The notes under the pieces were generated by a model that saw nothing but the letters and a program-made list of their open reading frames with translations, was not told the DNA's origin and did not search any database. Positions 1,577 to 18,214 of a stretch of DNA of 23,126 bases are shown here, one piece after another. Numbering within the stretch: the first letter of the stretch is position 1; each line of letters starts with the position of its first letter. The position numbers were made by a program, and so were the translations under genes. Source of the stretch: a virus; the IMG/VR virus record IMGVR_UViG_3300041809_002661, positions 1 to 23,126 of that record; one strand, given 5' to 3'.

Positions 1577-2014
1577 CTATTCTCGCGGCTTCTTCGCCTG
1601 TTCTCGTTGGTACCGGTCGCGCTCGTCGGCCAGGATGCGCAGGCCGAGCGCTTCTTCCGCCGTCACGTCGGCCCAGTCCACCCGGAACTTCGCTACGTCG
1701 AACTCCAGATCGGTAAGGCGGTTCAGCAACCGGCCCGCCGCGGAATGAGATCTGGCATGATCCAGGTCGTTCAACGGGCATCGGGCGCAGCGGTTGACCC
1801 GCGCGCTCTTCTCCCCGCAGTTGGGGCACTTCGGGATGCAGTTGGTGTCCTCAACTTCGAACACATGGCCGCACGGAATGCACGTCACGTCGTTGGCTTC
1901 CGGACATGCGTGCGGGCCATCTTCGCCGCCATCGCAAAGATCGTAGGCCCGCACGGTGCGGTGCACCAGGAGCCGGAGCGGGACTGGACTGGGCCACTCG
2001 CCCGGCGCTAGGAG
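1577..2014 (-). CDS. Tail assembly chaperone C-terminal extension (T part), reached by -1 frameshift; zinc-ribbon type
   Basis: This frame has no convincing start codon where a separate gene should begin. It lies exactly in the -1 frame relative to the preceding gene and overlaps its stop at 2008. Read through the slippery site at 2014-2020 it adds 145 residues to the 212 preceding ones, giving a 357-residue fusion. In lambda, gpG and gpGT are made the same way and act as tail assembly chaperones, with T recruiting the tail tube protein. The extension contains at least eight cysteines, including CIPC, CPNC and CARC, with the spacing of one or two zinc ribbons. It ends in a charged helix (ILADERDRYQREQAKK). 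Independent initiation from a GTG at 1966 is possible but lacks a ribosome binding site. Confidence 0.62.
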   Translation of the reverse strand, partial: LLAPGEWPSPVPLRLLVHRTVRAYDLCDGGEDGPHACPEANDVTCIPCGHVFEVEDTNCIPKCPNCGEKSARVNRCARCPLNDLDHARSHSAAGRLLNRLTDLEFDVAKFRVDWADVTAEEALGLRILADERDRYQREQAKKPRE

Positions 2015-2020
2015 TTTGGG
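1972..2020 (-). promoter_or_regulatory. Programmed -1 ribosomal frameshift signal (CCCAAAC plus stem-loop)
   Basis: On the minus strand, bases 2020-2014 read C CCA AAC in the zero frame, a canonical X XXY YYZ slippery heptamer. It sits two codons before the TAG at 2010-2008. Seven bases downstream a stem can form: GCCGGGCG (2006-1999) pairs with CGCTCCGGC (1980-1972), with one bulged T. The spacing and stem are what -1 frameshift stimulators normally have. The -1 frame entered here is open for 146 codons to 1577. Confidence 0.72.
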
Positions 2021-2649
2021 TCTGGAAGTTCCGGATCGAGGTCGCCAACCGCGCTCACCACCTCCAGCACGATGCTCGATTTGTGATGCGGAGGAACGTC
2101 GGCGGCTTTGATCGAATCCACGTACCCGGAAATGGAGACCACGCTGGCGTCGTACAGGCGCTCGGCCGCCTCGGGCGGGTACCGGCGCTCCTCGACGCCG
2201 TGCGGCAGGTCGATGGCTTTGAACACGGTGCGCCGGTAGACGGCGAGGTCCTTCTCGAAGGGGATGTTGACGACGTGCTGCGTCTCGCCCAGCACCGTCA
2301 GCAGCGTGACGCGGTAGGTTTCGCCCTCGCGTTCGCATTTGGTGACGCGCTGCCGGGTAAGCAGCCCGATAGCTCTGGCCGCTTCCGCCTCGTCGAAGTC
2401 CGGGCCTTTGTCGATGCGAATGCGGGTGAACAGATCGAGGTCGGACTTGGGATTCGGGACGCTTTCGCTCTGGCCCTTGCGGCGCCCGAGGTCGCGGTAC
2501 AGCGTCTTCTGCTGGTTGAGGTAGCCACGCATCTCCGGGTTCGTGGGCAACCGGAGCACGGCGGTCTTGGCGGGGCGAAGGATCTGGACCGGGAAGCCGT
2601 GAACGGCTTCGCCGGTGGACGTTTGAATTTCGGGAAGTTCTCCGTACAT
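2008..2649 (-). CDS. Tail assembly chaperone, short form (gpG-like)
   Basis: This 213-residue protein starts MYGELPEIQTSTGEAV. An AAGAGGA ribosome binding site lies just upstream of the ATG at 2649. The N-terminal 40 residues look like beta strands; the middle is charged, with DLFTRIRIDKG and FDEAEAARAIGLL; the C-terminal part has EERRYPPEAAERLYDA and a conserved-looking VSISGYVD. I do not recognise the exact family. Position (after the tail tube, before the tape measure), size, and a downstream overlapping frame joined by a slippery heptamer identify it by analogy as the G component of a G/GT chaperone pair. The short form ends at the TAG at 2008 and should be the more abundant product. Confidence 0.62.
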   Translation of the reverse strand: MYGELPEIQTSTGEAVHGFPVQILRPAKTAVLRLPTNPEMRGYLNQQKTLYRDLGRRKGQSESVPNPKSDLDLFTRIRIDKGPDFDEAEAARAIGLLTRQRVTKCEREGETYRVTLLTVLGETQHVVNIPFEKDLAVYRRTVFKAIDLPHGVEERRYPPEAAERLYDASVVSISGYVDSIKAADVPPHHKSSIVLEVVSAVGDLDPELPDPNS

Positions 2650-2736
2650 GGGTGTCCTCTTATAGAAGTTGGGGCCGGCGGCCTGTCGGATGCGCCGGCT
2701 CGAAATGACGAATAGAACGATGAGGGCGGACAGGGT

Positions 2737-2892
2737 TCAGTGTTCTTGTGGCGACGGCGCGCTCACTTTCGGCGGACTCCCGCGCCCAGGCGCCACTTTG
2801 AACGAGAAGGGGGCCTCCTCAGTCACGTGAACGCTGCGGACTGTCACGTTCCCTTTTAGAGTCAACAACTTGCCAGGCAGCTCGTTGAGCAT
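2737..2892 (-). CDS. Small 51-residue ORF upstream of the chaperone gene, possibly a truncated phage gene
   Basis: The frame starts at the ATG at 2892-2890 and ends at TGA 2739-2737, coding for 51 residues (MLNELPGKLLTLKGN...). The sequence reads like real protein: beta-rich VTVRSVHV, then a proline- and basic-rich tail. There is no clear Shine-Dalgarno sequence and an in-frame stop lies eight codons upstream. It has the same orientation as the phage operon and abuts the foreign-looking plus-strand block, so it may be the surviving 3' part of a tail gene cut by that insertion. Function unknown. Confidence 0.35.
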   Translation of the reverse strand: MLNELPGKLLTLKGNVTVRSVHVTEEAPFSFKVAPGRGSPPKVSAPSPQEH

Positions 2893-3097
2893 TAGTGAGG
2901 CGTGAGGACTTTCTCAGCTATGTATCTGACAACAATTGTGGCGACGGCACGTGCCAAGGGCCTGTCAATACGCGGTTTTCAACATGGGCGACTCTCATTA
3001 CGAAATGTGGCGGGTGCTTCCTAATTGGTACAATCAGATCGTATTACCCCGTGACCGGATCGCTTGGGTCGCTTTTGCTGGCCGGTTGTGATGGAAC

Positions 3098-4753
3098 ATG
3101 GGCGAGAATATGGAGGCGACTGTGGTTCATCAACCTGATCCACGGAACTCGAAAACAGATCATGTGGACGTTCTCTTTGTCACAGCGCTTGAGGACGAAT
3201 ATAATGCGCTGATCGCCCTCTTGCCGAACGCTAAGGTGGACGTCTTCGATACCGTCGCATCGGTTCAGCGTTCCGGCTCGCCGGAGTCATATAGAGTTGC
3301 AGTAATCGTCACGGGACAAACTACGGCACTTGCGGAAGCTGCCGTAAAGGATGCGATCGTCCGCCGCGCTCCACGAGCAGTCATTCTTGTTGGTATTGCT
3401 GCCGGCTTTCCCGAAGCTAGCGTCAGTTTGGGCGACATCCTCATACCGTTTTGGATCTTTCCCTATGAGCACGCGAAGATCACTGAAGAGAGCACAGCTG
3501 GCAATCCGGTGCCCCCGACCGATCTCGCCGAAGCAGTTCATCCGCATCTGCTGAACCAGCATCGCGGCGAGCTTCGCGACGTCTCGCATTCGCTTTGGAA
3601 CGCCGCTAAGAACTTGAGTCGCGATCATGAATGTCCTTGGCTCGCCCGGATCCCTGTGCCGCGACCATCGTCGGAGGGTATTGCGCCCAAGATTCACGCC
3701 GATCTGAACTACATACTTGGGAGCGGCGACAAACTCGTGGCCTCCAAGTTTGCTGAGGTACGAGAGTGGCTGATCCATAAATACCGTTTGAATGCGATTG
3801 GCCTTGAAATGGAAGGCTACGGTGCCATCATTGCGTGCCGCAGCGCAGATACACCCTTTCTGCTCGTCAAGGCTATGCAGGATACTGCTACCGGAGCCAA
3901 GGATGACCCCGGAACTAAGGACCTCTGGCGAAATTACGCTGCCGCCGCCGCCGCCGCTTTTGCAATGACCCTCGTTGAACGCTACCGCTTTCCATCCGAC
4001 CGAACTGAGCTTACCGCGGTAAGGATTGAAGACTTTTCAGTTGACACGACGAGCACCAAGAATCGACGGAAATTGCATTCACTGCCGGACGATAGAGTGT
4101 GGAACGACCTCGTCAACGATGCGACCGCTTTAGAGCGCGACAAGGCGGTATTGCACTTCATCGACGCGCTAGAGAAGCGTATGTCGGACCCTGCTGGCGA
4201 TCTCCTCATGGTGGATCTGACAGCCGCTGCTACCGAGTTTCGAAACTGGCTCTACCATCCGCTCTATCAGCAGATCCTCCTGATGGATTCCCGTTACCTT
4301 GCTCGGTACCGCGAACGCCACGGCGAGAAGGGCGCTGGCGTCGTGAGAACATTTATCATTGATCCGTCGAAATTGAGTGAGACGATGATCACGAATGCCG
4401 AACGGACATTGCTCCGTCATGTCCAATTCGGGCTTCAGGCCAGCATTATCTATAGGGGATCGAACGTCCCAGACGATGTCATCGGGGATCTCGCCAATTT
4501 TATGGACGAGTTGACGCTAGATTTTGGGGATCACGAGCACTTGTTCAGAAAGGATATGACGGTCCGCGAAGTGGTCGCACAAAAAGGAGATCCCGGTTTT
4601 GCGGCGATACGGGACCGTGTGGCGTGGACGCTAGACGTTCGAAACATCGACAAGATTGTGCGGGCCGTGGGCGATGTGGACGAGGTGGTTCGCGACCTTC
4701 GAGCCAAGCTTAAGGGCAATCTCCAAACTAACGCGAACATCAAGCGGTCCTAG
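3098..4753 (+). CDS. PNP/MTAN-fold nucleosidase fused to an uncharacterised C-terminal domain (candidate defence effector)
   Basis: A 551-residue protein. Residues about 22-296 form a nucleoside phosphorylase/MTAN-type (PNP_UDP) domain. It begins with VDVLFVTALEDEY, followed by AVILVGIAAGF (94-104), the ribose-binding GLEMEGYG (235-242) and VKAMQDTATG with the expected catalytic Asp at 262. After this comes DLWRNYAAAAAAAFA, the pattern seen where this fold is an effector domain in bacterial and fungal NLR-like proteins. Catalytic residues look intact, so hydrolysis of an N-glycosidic bond in a purine nucleoside or nucleotide is likely. Residues about 330-551 are a separate mixed alpha/beta domain I cannot identify; they include RYLARYRERHGEKGAG, VVRTFIID and QASIIYRG segments and may be a sensor. 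The gene sits alone, antisense to the tail genes, and is less GC-rich than they are. The ATG at 3110 is an alternative start. The defence role is inferred from fold and setting; housekeeping salvage is less likely because of the C-terminal domain. Confidence 0.8.
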   Translation: MGENMEATVVHQPDPRNSKTDHVDVLFVTALEDEYNALIALLPNAKVDVFDTVASVQRSGSPESYRVAVIVTGQTTALAEAAVKDAIVRRAPRAVILVGIAAGFPEASVSLGDILIPFWIFPYEHAKITEESTAGNPVPPTDLAEAVHPHLLNQHRGELRDVSHSLWNAAKNLSRDHECPWLARIPVPRPSSEGIAPKIHADLNYILGSGDKLVASKFAEVREWLIHKYRLNAIGLEMEGYGAIIACRSADTPFLLVKAMQDTATGAKDDPGTKDLWRNYAAAAAAAFAMTLVERYRFPSDRTELTAVRIEDFSVDTTSTKNRRKLHSLPDDRVWNDLVNDATALERDKAVLHFIDALEKRMSDPAGDLLMVDLTAAATEFRNWLYHPLYQQILLMDSRYLARYRERHGEKGAGVVRTFIIDPSKLSETMITNAERTLLRHVQFGLQASIIYRGSNVPDDVIGDLANFMDELTLDFGDHEHLFRKDMTVREVVAQKGDPGFAAIRDRVAWTLDVRNIDKIVRAVGDVDEVVRDLRAKLKGNLQTNANIKRS

Positions 4754-4944
4754 TAAGGTAGGGGCACGTCGAAGACGCGCGAGCGGCACCACTCTTTCCA
4801 CGCCAGTCATACCATTACTCTGGCGAAGCCGTATCAGTTCAACTTGACGGGAAAGGCCCAACCCGCGGATTGGAGGGCGTCCTACCGCAAGCAGCCCATG
4901 GCATCGGCCTGACGAAGTCTGCGGCCCGCCTCAGCCTCCTCCGC

Positions 4945-5955
4945 CTACTGCGCGATGCCGGTGATGCCGCACTTGCCCACGAACGTCAGAATCCCGTTCG
5001 TCGCGTTGTACTGCGGCGCGACCGTCACGGTGCACGCCACAATTCCATCGGCCTCGGTGTTCTCGACCACCTGGTAACTGATCTGCTGCCAGGTCCACTG
5101 CGCCGAGTTGTTCGCATCGTAGCTGACCGTCAGGACCGCCGTGCCGGTGGTCTGCGCGACCAGCTTGGTGTACTCGTCGGAGCCAGACACCAGCCGCACA
5201 GTGAAAGTAAGCGACGGCACGCGGGAGCCGATTTCCAGGCGGCCGCGGGTGGCATACCCGTTCTGAAGACCCGAGCCAGGGAAGAATCCCGCGCTGAGCA
5301 TCAGGTTGTTCTTCCAGGCGATGGACCCGGAGAGAATCCGCTTGTTGGAGACGTAGTCCACGCCGTTGATGGTGAGCGCCATGCTCTGCGCGAGCATGTG
5401 CTTTTCGGTTTGCAGCGCCGGAACCACCACGCCGCTCGGCTGCGTCAGCAGGCCGGAGCCAGCCCAGTTAACCAGGCACTTGCTGGACGCGCGCCCAGGG
5501 CCGTAGCTGAACTGGTACGTCACGTCCTCGATGGCGCAACCGACGTACATGTTGTCGATGGCGCTACCGCCGCCCTCGGGCACCTGCTCGATGACCGAGA
5601 AGTAGGGCAGCTCCAATCCTGTCGCCGGATTGATGGGCACCACGGTCAGGATGAAGTTCGGGGTTGCCCCGCTCTCCACCACGCTGCCGAGCGCATACGC
5701 CCAGGCCCACGCGGTGAACTCCGCGCTGGCGAACTTTTCGATGCGGTTGGCGACGTCGTAACTCACCGGGTAGACCGCGCTGATGAACTCGTTCCCTTTG
5801 CCGATTTCCGCGGCATCATTCTCCGTGACCGCGTGCGGACTCGTGAGCGTCGTGTCGATCTTCTTGAACCTCAAGAAGGTGGCGCTCGGGGTAGCGATGT
5901 TGGCCTGTTTGTTCTTCCCCAGGCCGAGGATTAGACCCTGTACTCTTGCCGACAT
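4945..5955 (-). CDS. Probable phage tail tube (major tail) protein
   Basis: This 336-residue protein begins MSARVQGLILGLGKNKQ. It is rich in beta-strand-like segments, small residues and Thr/Val, ends VGKCGITGIAQ, and has few charges in the second half. Position after the head-tail joining genes and before the tail assembly chaperone is that of the tail tube protein (lambda V-like), whose rings stack into the tube. No sheath-like gene is visible next to it, which favours a siphovirus. The ATG at 5955 lies three bases beyond the upstream stop. The assignment rests mainly on order and composition; I cannot match it to a named family with certainty. Confidence 0.6.
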   Translation of the reverse strand: MSARVQGLILGLGKNKQANIATPSATFLRFKKIDTTLTSPHAVTENDAAEIGKGNEFISAVYPVSYDVANRIEKFASAEFTAWAWAYALGSVVESGATPNFILTVVPINPATGLELPYFSVIEQVPEGGGSAIDNMYVGCAIEDVTYQFSYGPGRASSKCLVNWAGSGLLTQPSGVVVPALQTEKHMLAQSMALTINGVDYVSNKRILSGSIAWKNNLMLSAGFFPGSGLQNGYATRGRLEIGSRVPSLTFTVRLVSGSDEYTKLVAQTTGTAVLTVSYDANNSAQWTWQQISYQVVENTEADGIVACTVTVAPQYNATNGILTFVGKCGITGIAQ

Positions 5956-7755: not shown

Positions 7756-9867
7756 CTACGCCAAGGTGTTCTTCTGCAAGCCGCGATAATCGATGGCCGC
7801 GGCGGCGAAGTCCAGGCGAGCCTTGATCTCGACGCCGTCCACCTCGAAGCCCTGCCGGGTCTCGATGTAAACGCCCTGCTGCCCTTCGAGATAGCAGTAC
7901 TCAATGGTGTCAATCGAGCTCGGGTCGGCCGCCGTGAACCAGTTGGTCTCGCCGAGCGGGCCGACCGCGTCCAAGCGCGGTTCCACAATCGGCACCATGG
8001 CGCGCACGAATGCCGGCACGTCGACCGAAGACGCGGTTGCCGCCAGGTTGATCGGGTTGGTGATCTGGACGGCAATCCCCTCGAGCGCCGCCGGGACGAT
8101 CAGATACCTGGGAATCAGGTTCAGGATCGTCCCCTTGGGGGCAGTCTGCTTGCGCATCCCCATGCGCGCCGCAGTGATGTTGGCCACCGCCGTGAGGGCA
8201 TTCGTGGCGGTCAGATTCTTGTGTGCCGCGTCGAACAGAGGCACGCCATCGGCCATGTTCGCGTTGGCCGTGATCACGGCCCACACGGCGTCGCTTTCCA
8301 GCGTCGCTGCCGCGATGCCCAGACCGGCGGGAATCCGCGTCAACGCCTGGAGGTCGTCGTTAAGGACCACCTTTCTGGTGATCGGAACGATTCCGCCCCA
8401 GGTCGTGAGCGCGTAGGACTCCTTCGAGTCGCTCAGATAAATGCGAACGAACTCCCCGTTTTCGTTGGTCTTCTGCAAGGCGGCGATGTCGCTCAACTGG
8501 ATGCGGTTCACCGGCTTGAAGTCGGCCGCAGTGACCTGGCGGCAGAACGGAACGAAGGTGCGCGGCGCCGCTTCATACGCCTGGCGCAGGGTTTTGTTGG
8601 CGACGTTCGCCAGGATGTTGGGAAGGTCGCTGGTGGTCATGGAGCCCTCGAAATACTCGGACGCCCCGTTGCGGCCCTGCAGCGCCACACGAGCGATCTC
8701 GTGGCGGTCCATCCCGCGCGTCTTCACGCCGCAGGCGCTCAGGCACTCGCGCGCCATGTCCACCAGCGTGAGTCCGGCGTACTCCCGGCCCTTCTCGACC
8801 ATCTCGCGCGACGCGCGCGGGTCGCCCCTCAGGAGCAACGCCGCCTCCATCCCTTCGCGTCGCTTGTCCGCCTCGTCCTGGCCTCCGCCCGAGGCGCCCG
8901 GGTTGAGCGGCTGAGTCGGGCGCTTCCGGTACTCGGCATCCAGCTTCGTCATGATGCGCTCCCGAGCGGCATCCACGGACACGCCCTCGTCGATCAGCGC
9001 TACGAGGAAGGTCTCCTCCACCTTGAAAGGGCCGGTGGCAATCGCGCGAATGGTGCTCGCGCGCAACCGCTCCGCCTTCACCGCCTCGTCGCGCGCGGCG
9101 GCGAGGGCAACTTCGTTTTGACGGGCCTCAACGCCCGGATCCTGCGTGGTCGTTTCCATCTCAGGTTTCTCCTTTATGTGGGCTGTTGCCCGTTGCGGTT
9201 CCACTACACTCGGTTGCGCCGGCGGCAGTATTGCCGCCGACATAAAAGTTGTGTTCGCGTCGCCAGGAACCGGCACGAGAGAGATCTCGAACGGTTCCCA
9301 ATCCGTCGCGGTGAATTCCTTGCGCTCCTGGCCCTTGGGGGTGGTATCCACCTTGCTGTAAATCCACATCCCCGGACTGAGGTTCTGAATGATGCCGCCC
9401 TTCACGTCGTTCCAGATGGGCGTTACGTCGTCCCGCTTACTGAACTGGATGGTGGCTACGCCCGTACCCTTCTTGGCCCAGGCTTTTCGCACCACGCCCA
9501 GTTGGTCCGCGACGCCATACGCGGCGTGCGAGTCCAGCACCGGACCGCCGTTGTTGAGGCGGTCCAGCCGGCAGCCCTTCATGTCGAGGATGAGGTCATA
9601 TTCCACGCCAGTGCGCCAGTCGAACCGGGGCACTTTGGCGCCCGTGTACCAGACCGCGTCAATGGTTCGGGAGTCATCGTTGGCCGACGGCGGAGCGAAG
9701 CTCGCCGCCACGGCGAAGCGCTCGACCTGGATCTCCGGGCTTTCCTGCTGTTGCTCCGGTGGCGTTCGAGCGGCGACGGCTTCCTCCGGGGCGGTCGCCG
9801 GCAGTGTTGCGGCGGCGACTTCTACCGGGGCGGTCTCCGGCACCGTCCCCGCGATTTCTTCGGGCAT
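7756..9867 (-). CDS. Prohead protease - major capsid protein fusion
   Basis: A 703-residue protein. Residues 1-45 are an Ala/Pro/Glu-rich leader. Residues about 48-210 form a prohead-protease-like domain: GGPVLDSHAAYG with His114, GIIQNLSPGMW with Ser164 as the likely nucleophile, and EPFEISLVPVPGD. Residues 215-390 are Glu/Lys/Ala-rich and probably serve as scaffold (delta domain). Residues about 400-703 look like an HK97-fold major capsid protein, with EYFEGSMTTSDLPNILANV and FRIQLSD-like strands through YRGLQKNTLA at the end. In most phages protease and capsid are separate genes; here one polyprotein would be self-processed during prohead maturation. No internal stop or frameshift is visible across the junction. 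The start ATG lies 27 bases after the portal stop. Confidence 0.8.
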   Translation of the reverse strand: MPEEIAGTVPETAPVEVAAATLPATAPEEAVAARTPPEQQQESPEIQVERFAVAASFAPPSANDDSRTIDAVWYTGAKVPRFDWRTGVEYDLILDMKGCRLDRLNNGGPVLDSHAAYGVADQLGVVRKAWAKKGTGVATIQFSKRDDVTPIWNDVKGGIIQNLSPGMWIYSKVDTTPKGQERKEFTATDWEPFEISLVPVPGDANTTFMSAAILPPAQPSVVEPQRATAHIKEKPEMETTTQDPGVEARQNEVALAAARDEAVKAERLRASTIRAIATGPFKVEETFLVALIDEGVSVDAARERIMTKLDAEYRKRPTQPLNPGASGGGQDEADKRREGMEAALLLRGDPRASREMVEKGREYAGLTLVDMARECLSACGVKTRGMDRHEIARVALQGRNGASEYFEGSMTTSDLPNILANVANKTLRQAYEAAPRTFVPFCRQVTAADFKPVNRIQLSDIAALQKTNENGEFVRIYLSDSKESYALTTWGGIVPITRKVVLNDDLQALTRIPAGLGIAAATLESDAVWAVITANANMADGVPLFDAAHKNLTATNALTAVANITAARMGMRKQTAPKGTILNLIPRYLIVPAALEGIAVQITNPINLAATASSVDVPAFVRAMVPIVEPRLDAVGPLGETNWFTAADPSSIDTIEYCYLEGQQGVYIETRQGFEVDGVEIKARLDFAAAAIDYRGLQKNTLA

Positions 9868-15264: not shown

Positions 15265-16521
15265 TCAGTTGACCGGAGACCGCTTTGCGGCCAAGGCATC
15301 AAACAAATCGCCGGAGGACTCAAGCACCGCATTCCGCCCGACATGCGATTGCCAGCGCCGAACTATCACATCGCAGTAGCACGGCTCCAACTCGATCACC
15401 CGCGCCTGGCGCCCGGCCTTCTCGCACGCGATCAGAGTCGTCCCAGACCCTCCGAACGGGTCCAGCACCGTGTCACGCGTCTTGCTGCTGTTCCGAATTC
15501 CGCGTTCCACCAGTTCGACGGGCTTCATTGTCGGGTGCAGATCGTTAACGTGCGGCTTCTTGATGAACCAGACGTCGCCCTGGTCGCGCGCCCCGCACCA
15601 GAAGTGGTCCGCGCCCTCGCGCCAGCCGTAGAGGATCGGTTCGTACTGCCGCTGGTAGTCCGACCGCCCCATCGTGAAGGTGTTCTTTGCCCACACCACA
15701 AACGTGGACCAGTGGCCGCCGGCCTCGCGGAACACCCGCTGCAGGGTGTGGATCTCCGAGGACGACATGCAGACGTAGATCGCGCCCTTGCAGACCGCCA
15801 CCATGTTCACGCACGCCTCCCGCAGGAACTGCTCGAAGTCGGAGCCGAGGTTATCGTTGGCGATGGGCCGATTCGTGCCCCGAATCTTGTCTTTCATCGT
15901 CGCGCCGTAGTTCACGTTGTACGGTGGATCGCAGAAGACCATGTCGGCGAGGCCGCCTGCCAACACCTTCTCGACATCCGTCATGATCGTGGCGTCGCCG
16001 CACAGCAACCGGTGGTCGCCCAAGATCCAGACATCGCCCGGCACGGTCACAACCGCCGCTTCCGTCTCCGGAACGGCATCCTCGTCGGTCAAACCCTCGC
16101 TGGTTCCTTCTGGACCAGCCAGGATGCTCTCCACTTCGTCTGCGGAGAAGCCGATCAGCTCCAGGTTGAACCCGCTTACGTCGAGGTCCTGCATCTCGAC
16201 GCGCAACATCTCCTCGTCCCAACCCGCGTTTAGCGCGAGCTTGTTGTCGGCCAGAACGAGCGCGCGCCGCTGCGCCTCCGTGAGGTGGCCGAGCACAATC
16301 ACGGGCACCTCGACCATTTTCAATTTGCGCGCGGCCAGCAACCGCGCATGGCCGGCGATAATCACACCGTCCGCGGCAACGAGGACGGGATTTGTCCAGC
16401 CAAACTCGATGATGCTGGCGGCAACCTGGGCGACTTGGGCGTCCGAATGCGTCCTAGAATTCCTCGCGTAAGGAATCAGCCGGTCGATGGGCCACTGCTC
16501 AACTTGGAGAACGGCTGTCAT
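15265..16521 (-). CDS. ParB-like domain fused to DPPY-type DNA adenine methyltransferase
   Basis: A 418-residue protein. Residues 1-100 are a ParB/sulfiredoxin-like domain: IDRLIPYARNSRTHSDAQV, NPVLV and the GHAR motif (57-60), then LADNKLALNAGWD. The methyltransferase has CDPPYNVNYG (DPPY 198-201) before the AdoMet-binding DPFGGSGTT (354-362), the beta-class order, and HPTMKP between them. DPPY points to N6-adenine methylation. The start overlaps the previous gene's stop (ATGA), so it is coupled to the second methyltransferase. No matching restriction nuclease is adjacent. Probable roles are protecting phage DNA from host restriction or marking replication or packaging DNA; the target sequence is unknown. 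Confidence 0.85.
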   Translation of the reverse strand: MTAVLQVEQWPIDRLIPYARNSRTHSDAQVAQVAASIIEFGWTNPVLVAADGVIIAGHARLLAARKLKMVEVPVIVLGHLTEAQRRALVLADNKLALNAGWDEEMLRVEMQDLDVSGFNLELIGFSADEVESILAGPEGTSEGLTDEDAVPETEAAVVTVPGDVWILGDHRLLCGDATIMTDVEKVLAGGLADMVFCDPPYNVNYGATMKDKIRGTNRPIANDNLGSDFEQFLREACVNMVAVCKGAIYVCMSSSEIHTLQRVFREAGGHWSTFVVWAKNTFTMGRSDYQRQYEPILYGWREGADHFWCGARDQGDVWFIKKPHVNDLHPTMKPVELVERGIRNSSKTRDTVLDPFGGSGTTLIACEKAGRQARVIELEPCYCDVIVRRWQSHVGRNAVLESSGDLFDALAAKRSPVN

Positions 16522-18044
16522 GACGCCTTCCTTCGCGGCCCGTAGTGCGGGTTCGGCCCGTGGTGTTTGATGGCGCCCCTGTCCTGCGCCTTGGGGTTCA
16601 ACGCCTGCCCCGGATCGACCCCGCGCGCGGCCGCGATCTTCGCGAACGTCGCGCCCGACTCATGCGTCGCCTCGTTTCCGGTCAAGCTCATCATCCTGTT
16701 CAAGATCACATCGCAGTAGCCAGGCGAGATCTCGCAGCCGTATCCGATCCGGCCCAGCACTTCCGCGGCTGCCATCGTGGTTCCGCTTCCCATGAATGGA
16801 TCGAACACCACATCGCCCGCGTCGGTGAACGCCAGGACGAAAAACTCCACCAGGGCGCGCGGAAACGGAGCGGAGTGCGATCCCTGCGAGGACTCGCTCT
16901 TGACCTCGATCACGTTCGAGGGGCGCGCGATGCCCTCATGCCGCCCGTCCACCAGCTTGCGGCGCATATTTCCCCAACCCTGCGATCCCTCGGGCGGCGA
17001 CGAGGCGGATTCGCCGCGCGGTCCGGTCCCCAGTAAGCCGCTACCAGACTTCGACACCGGATTGTCGGGGGAGTAATCGAAGCAGTCTTCAGACACGTGT
17101 CCAACCGCTTCAGGCCGAAACTTGATCTCCCCTTGGCGGCTGAAGTGGTAGACCGGCTCGAAGGCATTCTTAAACCTGTTCCCCCAACCGCCCGGCACGC
17201 CGTTGTCGGTTTTTCGCCAACAGAATTCGTCCACGAACATCCAACCCCAGAGGCGCTTGTGTGCGATGACCAAGTCGGCCACGTACAAGTTCCGCTCGCC
17301 ATCGTCGGCGTGCGCCTTGATGTTCAGGAAGTACGACCCGTCCGGCGCCAGGATCGACTCGATGCCCGCCGCCACAGCCTGAAACCAGGCGACGTACTCA
17401 GCGGGCGGAATCGGCAGGAACCCACTCGACGGGTCGTATTTTCGCTGCGTGGCGTAGGGCGGCGACGTGATGGCCACGTTCGCCTGCGCCGGCCCGAATA
17501 ACGCGCGAATGATACTCGCGTCCCTGCAATCGCCGCACACCAGGCGGTGCGCCCCAATCTGCCAGATGTCGCCGGGTTGCGTGACGGGCGTCGCCGGAGG
17601 CTCGGGAACGACCTCGGGCGCTTCCTCGACCGGTGCCTCGTCGCCGGGCAGCAATACTTCCAGTTCGGCGGTGGTGAAGCCGATCAGCGCAAGATCCACG
17701 CCGGCCAGCGTCAAGTCGCCGAGTTCCTCCGCGAGGAGCTTCTCGTCCCAACCAGCATTCAACGCCAGCTTATTGTCGGCGATGATGTAGGCGCGCCTCT
17801 GAGCGTCGGTGAGGTGATCGAGCACCACCACCGGCACTTCTGCCAGGCCCAACTGCCGCGCCGCCAGCAGCCGACCGTGACCGGCGATGATTCCGTCGTT
17901 GCTGTCGACGAGGACCGGGTTCACAAACCCGAACTCGACGATGGACGCTGCGATCTGCGCCACCTGTGCGTCCGAGTGCGTCCGGGCGTTCTTGGCGTAG
18001 GGCCGCAGCCGCTCGGTCGGCCAAATCTCGATGTTGCGAGCCAT
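16518..18044 (-). CDS. ParB-like domain fused to SPPY-type DNA methyltransferase (probably N4-cytosine)
   Basis: A 508-residue protein from the ATG at 18044 (MARNIEIWPTERL); the longer frame to 18107 reads over the preceding small ORF. Residues 1-100 are ParB-like, with NPVLVDSNDGIIAGHGRLL and ADNKLALNAGWD, and are closely similar to the next gene's N-terminus. A Glu/Pro-rich linker (134-158) leads to the methyltransferase: TSPPY (193-197), a long insertion (200-405) that probably recognises the target, and DPFMGSGTT (415-423). SPPY with this order is typical of N4-cytosine enzymes, though some methylate adenine. It has the same neighbours and likely the same protective role as the DPPY enzyme, with a different specificity. 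Confidence 0.83.
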   Translation of the reverse strand: MARNIEIWPTERLRPYAKNARTHSDAQVAQIAASIVEFGFVNPVLVDSNDGIIAGHGRLLAARQLGLAEVPVVVLDHLTDAQRRAYIIADNKLALNAGWDEKLLAEELGDLTLAGVDLALIGFTTAELEVLLPGDEAPVEEAPEVVPEPPATPVTQPGDIWQIGAHRLVCGDCRDASIIRALFGPAQANVAITSPPYATQRKYDPSSGFLPIPPAEYVAWFQAVAAGIESILAPDGSYFLNIKAHADDGERNLYVADLVIAHKRLWGWMFVDEFCWRKTDNGVPGGWGNRFKNAFEPVYHFSRQGEIKFRPEAVGHVSEDCFDYSPDNPVSKSGSGLLGTGPRGESASSPPEGSQGWGNMRRKLVDGRHEGIARPSNVIEVKSESSQGSHSAPFPRALVEFFVLAFTDAGDVVFDPFMGSGTTMAAAEVLGRIGYGCEISPGYCDVILNRMMSLTGNEATHESGATFAKIAAARGVDPGQALNPKAQDRGAIKHHGPNPHYGPRRKAS

Positions 18045-18055
18045 CGCGGGCGTAA

Positions 18056-18214
18056 TCACTGTTGCGGCCTCTGAGTGGCCTGCGCTGTGGGAACAACCAC
18101 GACGCATAGGTCGGGAAGGCCCAGCAGGCGAGCCGCCAGAAGGCGGCAGTGGCCGGCAATCACTACGCCCGCGGAGTCCACGATGATCGGGTTCTCTGCC
18201 AGGGAAGTCGTCAT
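18056..18214 (-). CDS. Short ParB-like fragment (52 residues)
   Basis: An ATG at 18214 opens 52 codons ending with TGA at 18058-18056, twelve bases before the next start. The translation contains NPIIVDSAGVVIAGHCRLL and then AARLLGLPDL, which lines up with the NPVLVDS...GIIAGHGRLLAARQLGL segment of the downstream methyltransferase. It covers only that ParB core, with no DNA-binding helix or methyltransferase. It is either a very small stand-alone ParB-like protein or the remnant of a third duplicated copy. In the GH-R motif the usual Gly/Ala is replaced by Cys. Confidence 0.55.
   Translation of the reverse strand: MTTSLAENPIIVDSAGVVIAGHCRLLAARLLGLPDLCVVVVPTAQATQRPQQ

Follow-up and report, generated by a model that had tools for sequence, protein, structure and literature searches.

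A metagenomic virus record of 23,126 bases (the whole of this stretch is hereafter referred to as the window), a fragment whose minus strand carries genes for head and tail, very probably contains a programmed -1 ribosomal frameshift of the kind found in the lambda gpG/gpGT tail assembly chaperone genes. A previous sequence-only reading had interpreted the junction as a -1 frameshift, and this interpretation is supported by the conservation of the slippery heptamer, by selection acting on the -1 frame and by gene order.

The 0 frame of the gene (positions 2008 to 2649, minus strand, as for all window coordinates below unless indicated) encodes 213 residues with the C-terminus DPELPDPNS, ends at a TAG stop (2008 to 2010) and, based on a 43-row family alignment and its place before the tape measure gene, is predicted to represent the short form of the chaperone. 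Ten nucleotides ahead of this stop lies the heptamer CCCAAAC (2014 to 2020), a canonical XXXYYYZ site in the correct phase, just as had been noticed from the letters alone. Its phasing, C_CCA_AAC, would enable both codons to re-pair, as CCC and AAA, upon a slip of one base. The -1 frame is open in the window from 2659 to 1577, and the portion following the shift (1577 to 2014, with its stop at 1579 to 1577), which is conserved and under purifying selection, comprises 145 residues. If the shift comes after decoding of AAC, the predicted fusion amounts to 212 + 145 = 357 residues, the length proposed earlier. Owing to an in-frame ATG at 2338, situated 106 codons upstream of the heptamer, the list of open reading frames (ORFs) gives a misleading ORF of 253 residues (2338 to 1577); ORF finding splits the product in two and mis-starts the fusion, as had been anticipated for gene callers, and a frameshift would account for both errors. 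CCCAAAC by itself is not rare, with three occurrences in the window against 2.65 expected, and it is conservation that decides whether the site exceeds chance.

Conservation was examined in a clade set comprising the window and 43 de-duplicated relatives, taken from viral contigs of soil and from genomes of Acidobacteriota. The searches for relatives yielded viral contigs and seven genome contigs, the latter all titled Acidobacteriota (Solibacteraceae, Bryobacterales, Acidobacteriia), and the virus appears to be a phage of soil Acidobacteria. CCCAAAC was found exactly 10 nt ahead of the 0-frame stop in 44/44 sequences, so that both heptamer and frame are kept among homologues, a check which the sequence-only reading had suggested. 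The pattern that it had named as contradicting a frameshift, namely homologues whose two frames lie far apart, or in which the heptamer is missing and the second frame is preceded by a conserved start with its ribosome binding site, was looked for and not encountered. Among the fetched relatives only two deviate from the CCCAAAC rule: one belongs to a sister clade (L037), and the other (L038), whose 0 frame ends early, is probably a broken gene. In the first 24 genes, other in-frame XXXYYYZ motifs (Y = A/T) occur at 4 of ~4,900 codon positions, compared with 24/24 at the slip site. Furthermore, GAC-CCA-AAC correspond to the only three of 108 conserved 0-frame columns permitting synonymous choice in which no synonymous variation is seen, and CCA, which accounts for only 8% of the proline codons at other places in the clade genes (52 of 637), is used in 44/44 cases at the heptamer. 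Two relatives (L081 and L085) have an altered residue preceding the slip site and retain the heptamer.

The extension is alignable from the heptamer onward (PKLLAPDEWPxPVPLRLLI...), and median pairwise dN/dS values of 0.165 for the extension and 0.117 for the 0-frame part indicate purifying selection on both. Comparison of the window with its nearest relative reveals that the excess of third-position substitutions shifts to the -1 frame past the heptamer. Start codons were surveyed over the same 44 sequences, and no start conserved across the clade was found in the -1 frame, which is thus a coding frame without a family-wide start of its own. The earlier claim that this frame has no start holds in part: several relatives lack a usable one and none is conserved, but the window itself has both GTG codons and the upstream ATG. 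Moreover, in seven relatives a -1-frame stop immediately precedes the heptamer and closes the frame.

A stimulatory RNA structure downstream of the slip site is usual for -1 frameshifting, though not obligatory. Starting seven nucleotides after the heptamer, the arm GCCGGGCG (1999 to 2006) is predicted by folding to pair with the arm CGCTCCGGC (CGC-U-CCGGC; 1972 to 1980) through eight base pairs and one bulged U, which corresponds to the eight-pair stem previously described at this spacing. The stem by itself has a predicted energy of -13.5 kcal/mol, and the 43-nt segment reaches -17.6 in its best fold. Relative to synonymous recodings of the -1 protein, the 56 nt downstream of the site gave a mean z of -1.68 across 40 sequences (19 at p < 0.05), as against mean z values of -0.10 to -0.52 for five control windows in the same genes. 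For the window alone, the excess in stability over synonymous recodings does not reach significance (z -0.82, p 0.19). No covariation of the stem was detected (pairing 89.0% compared with 88.6% in shuffled data) in this conserved and coding region, and scans of the window for Rfam families and tRNAs returned no matches. From the stability excess at the family level, it is plausible that the hairpin stimulates the shift within the family. In one relative (L053), an inverted-repeat insert of ~54 nt is located directly behind the 0-frame stop (from 6603); it is predicted to form a strong hairpin, and the -1 frame stays open.

Under the proposed mechanism, most ribosomes would terminate at the TAG (2010 to 2008) and release the 213-residue chaperone. 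In a minority, tRNA-Pro and tRNA-Asn positioned on C_CCA_AAC would move back by one base onto CCC-AAA, and these ribosomes would read on in the -1 frame, adding a zinc-ribbon-like domain of 145 residues to give 357 in total. By analogy with lambda, the N-terminal part shared by both products would be the one that binds the tape measure protein, recruitment of tail-tube subunits would fall to the extension, and the frequency of the shift would thereby set the ratio needed for tail assembly. The slippage, its frequency and what each part binds are inferred. Since it is C_CCA_AAG, and not a site ending in AAC, that published data from E. coli (PMC5009743) pick out as especially prone to shifting, the efficiency of CCCAAAC may be low.

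Gene order points to a tail assembly chaperone of the lambda gpG/gpGT type. Upstream lies the gene for a tail tube-like protein of 336 residues (4945 to 5955), which matches phrog_290 'minor tail protein' (E 9.6e-8), its tube role being suggested by position, and which is 65% identical to a homologue on a relative (L073) where that gene adjoins the chaperone gene. Downstream, the gene for a putative tail-completion protein of 143 residues (1143 to 1574), with a weak match to phrog_26 (E 0.036) and the same place in relatives, separates the extension from the tape measure gene, of which only the portion for the N-terminus (3 to 1139) is present because the record ends within it. The latter assignment derives from similarity to L073: the ORF from 1139 to 3 shares 65% identity over 130 residues with the N-terminus of an L073 ORF of 1,283 residues that itself matches tape measure PHROGs (phrog_12506, E 1.5e-8). 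Longer relatives present the order tail tube-like gene, chaperone, extension, a gene of ~150 residues, and an ORF of 1,200 to >1,500 residues, with further genes inside that order on some contigs. The candidate gene is thus flanked by a tail tube-like gene on one side and, beyond a single further gene, by the tape measure gene on the other, and the chaperone label, originally given by position, gains support from this synteny. At the level of sequence, short and long forms with a common N-terminus are linked by the frameshift.

The domain encoded solely in the -1 frame is predicted to be a zinc ribbon, as judged from alignments of a structural model, weak profile matches and conserved cysteines. 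Its cysteine-rich, zinc-ribbon-like part (1778 to 1936) contains C29, C39, C47, C50, C65, C68, C78 and C81, and these eight cysteine columns are invariant or nearly so in the family alignment. The model of the extension (pLDDT 85.5) aligns almost exclusively with small zinc or metal ribbons, with Z up to 4.2, and a sequence search of the PDB yielded only weak zinc-ribbon matches (best E 0.022).

Alternative explanations for this arrangement were weighed against the same data. Instead of a fusion, the extension might be a separate protein produced by coupling or re-initiation at a GTG or TTG located 12 to 27 codons past the heptamer. Suitable codons do occur, including window GTGs at 1966 and 1954 (the -1 frame has another at 1888) and a TTG or GTG at codon 16, 17, 22 or 27 in many relatives. 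However, no start position is common to all clade members, ten of the 44 lacking any ATG, GTG or TTG within the first 30 codons of the -1 frame, and the conserved protein starts at the heptamer, ahead of the candidate codons. Separate initiation would furthermore leave the absence of synonymous variation in CCA-AAC unexplained, and we consider it very improbable. Even less credible is an independent overlapping gene of 253 residues in the -1 frame starting from the ATG at 2338, to which the heptamer would be incidental: despite the frame being open across this ATG in the window, the codon is unconserved, most relatives possess -1-frame stops between it and the junction, and substitutions upstream of the heptamer track the 0 frame (90 of 124 fall at its third positions). 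As the window is a metagenomic virus record, a change of frame could in principle be mimicked by an error in sequencing or assembly, or by a gene that is broken; dozens of independent contigs, and bacterial genomes as well, show the same layout, which together with purifying selection on both frames makes this scarcely conceivable. Separate initiation, the overlapping gene and assembly error were rejected on the grounds of conservation.

A further possibility, which we regard as improbable, accepts the frameshift as real and assigns it to another tail-module protein with a zinc-ribbon extension. Consistent with such a protein, the 0-frame product lacks a match to a chaperone family among profiles or solved structures: no Pfam or PHROG profile was matched, a PDB sequence search with the 0-frame profile returned nothing, and a fold search with the 0-frame model (pLDDT 86) retrieved no convincing PDB match. 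In BFVD, the model matched one viral protein of 175 residues (E 6e-4, TM 0.49). Isolated-phage records contained no relative of the chaperone, of the extension or of two sister-clade chaperones. The extension resembles a zinc ribbon, and zinc-ribbon T domains were not described in the papers found. Conversely, a position between tail tube and tape measure combined with a -1 shift at the end of the first ORF is the established signature of the chaperone. Chaperone families are moreover very divergent, with sequences known to resemble one another little from phage to phage (PMC5009743), so that the missing matches decide nothing. The tail assembly chaperone accordingly remains our preferred reading.

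Beyond the clade of the window, the junction displays considerable variety in its slip sites. A Solibacteraceae metagenome-assembled genome (G002) carries six chaperone copies, three within the clade of the window (L033-L035) and three distant from it (L104-L106), which suggests several related prophages. One of the distant copies (L106) has A_AAT_TTT at the same junction, and a sequence from another genome (L101) has G_GGA_AAC. Searches seeded with L037 and L106 delineated two large sister clades, A (L037, L104, L105 and L107-L186; n=69) and B (L187-L266; n=65). The 65 sequences of clade B comprise 31 with CCCAAAC, 17 with AAATTTY and five with GGGAAAC; the remaining 12 feature AAGTTTY, AACTTTT or GAGTTTT before the stop, and so have no canonical heptamer while keeping T_TTY. 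Clade A has no canonical heptamer, and all but three of its 69 members share the junction GAC-CCG-GAA-stop. In members keeping the residues, synonymous variation is absent from the last four codons, and the -1 frame is conserved downstream of the junction, opening no more than 13 nt from the stop in 28 members and no more than 7 nt from it in one. We therefore propose GAC-CCG-GAA-stop as a candidate conserved, non-canonical recoding signal. The three exceptions carry CTCGGAA or ATCGGAA instead, variants which leave either slippage of GAA beside the stop, or re-initiation at an overlapping AUA/AUG, as possible routes in clade A. The non-canonical junctions of the sister clades include CCCGGAA-TAG and GCAAGTTTTTAG.

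When mapped onto a tree built with the junction residues excluded, a quick reconstruction with some long branches, the five site types require at least nine changes, where four would be the least possible. With some reserve, we lean towards a scenario in which the Acidobacteria-associated chaperone junction has repeatedly swapped its slip signal (CCCAAAC, GGGAAAC, AAATTTY, AAGTTTT-type and CCCGGAA-stop), with the non-canonical signals operating through G:U re-pairing or P-site slippage beside the stop, and with a zinc ribbon as the domain reached only by frameshifting. If true, this exchange of slip sites would provide a natural series for working out what governs -1 slippage in a phylum that has received little study. 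A full-text search found no report of such junctions for Acidobacteria prophages.

Several other genes of the window were also noted. A gene of 551 residues on the opposite strand (3098 to 4753, plus strand), inside the interval 2650 to 4944, splits the tail tube-like and chaperone genes, which in the nearest relative (L039) are adjacent, the insertion being absent. It matches the phosphorylase-superfamily domain PF01048 and PADLOC effector models, and may represent a phage-carried defence gene. Two methyltransferase genes lie side by side (15265 to 16521 and 16518 to 18107) towards the terminase end of the block of head genes, and a single PADLOC type II methyltransferase model matches both. 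An ORF of 703 residues (7756 to 9867) matches the capsid domain PF25209 only at residues 370-700; its N-terminal half, for which no Pfam match was found, may represent a prohead protease that is joined to the capsid protein in one chain.

Compared with known systems, the mechanism is one already described, and the protein family is one not covered by Pfam or PHROGs, such that the present analysis adds a large Acidobacteria-associated chaperone family to a classic recoding system. With lambda gpG/gpGT, the window shares two predicted products from one start and a -1 shift shortly before the first ORF ends (PMC5009743), as well as placement in the tail tube-tape measure block, a canonical XXXYYYZ site and an extension in the -1 frame. 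In lambda, the short form binds the tape measure protein and the extension binds the tail tube, neither product stays in the virion (PMC5009743), and their ratio is ~30:1. The window differs from lambda in its heptamer (CCCAAAC, which places Asn AAC in the A site), in the zinc-ribbon-like character of the extension and in an additional gene ahead of the tape measure gene; moreover, no sequence similarity between its chaperone and known chaperone families was detected.

Heptamers ending in AAC close to the stop are common to the window, to KL1, whose gp18/gp19 use GGGAAAC (PMC3483164), and to the chaperone genes of the Caulobacter phage phiCbK (AAAAAAC) and of Colossus (GGGAAAC) (PMC3556154). 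The archaeal viruses HCTV-1 and HCTV-2 use GGGAAAC and AAAAAAC (PMC5009743). KL1 resembles the window also in having an intervening gene ahead of the tape measure gene, an arrangement compared in that study with HK97 (PMC3483164). A literature search for CCCAAAC in a phage-tail setting returned no instance. With regard to non-canonical sites, the authors of PRFect independently named CCCGGAA ('threetwotwo') a likely motif through G:U re-pairing (PMC10274946). Such motifs correspond here to CCCGGAA directly before the stop in clade A and to the AAGTTTT-type sites of some clade B members, whereas the window itself is canonical. The evidence from the sister clades derives from viral contigs of soil and from genomes of Acidobacteriota, and not from actinobacteriophages. 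The sister clades may consequently serve as a natural test set for the non-canonical motifs of PRFect, with conservation at the codon level as independent support.
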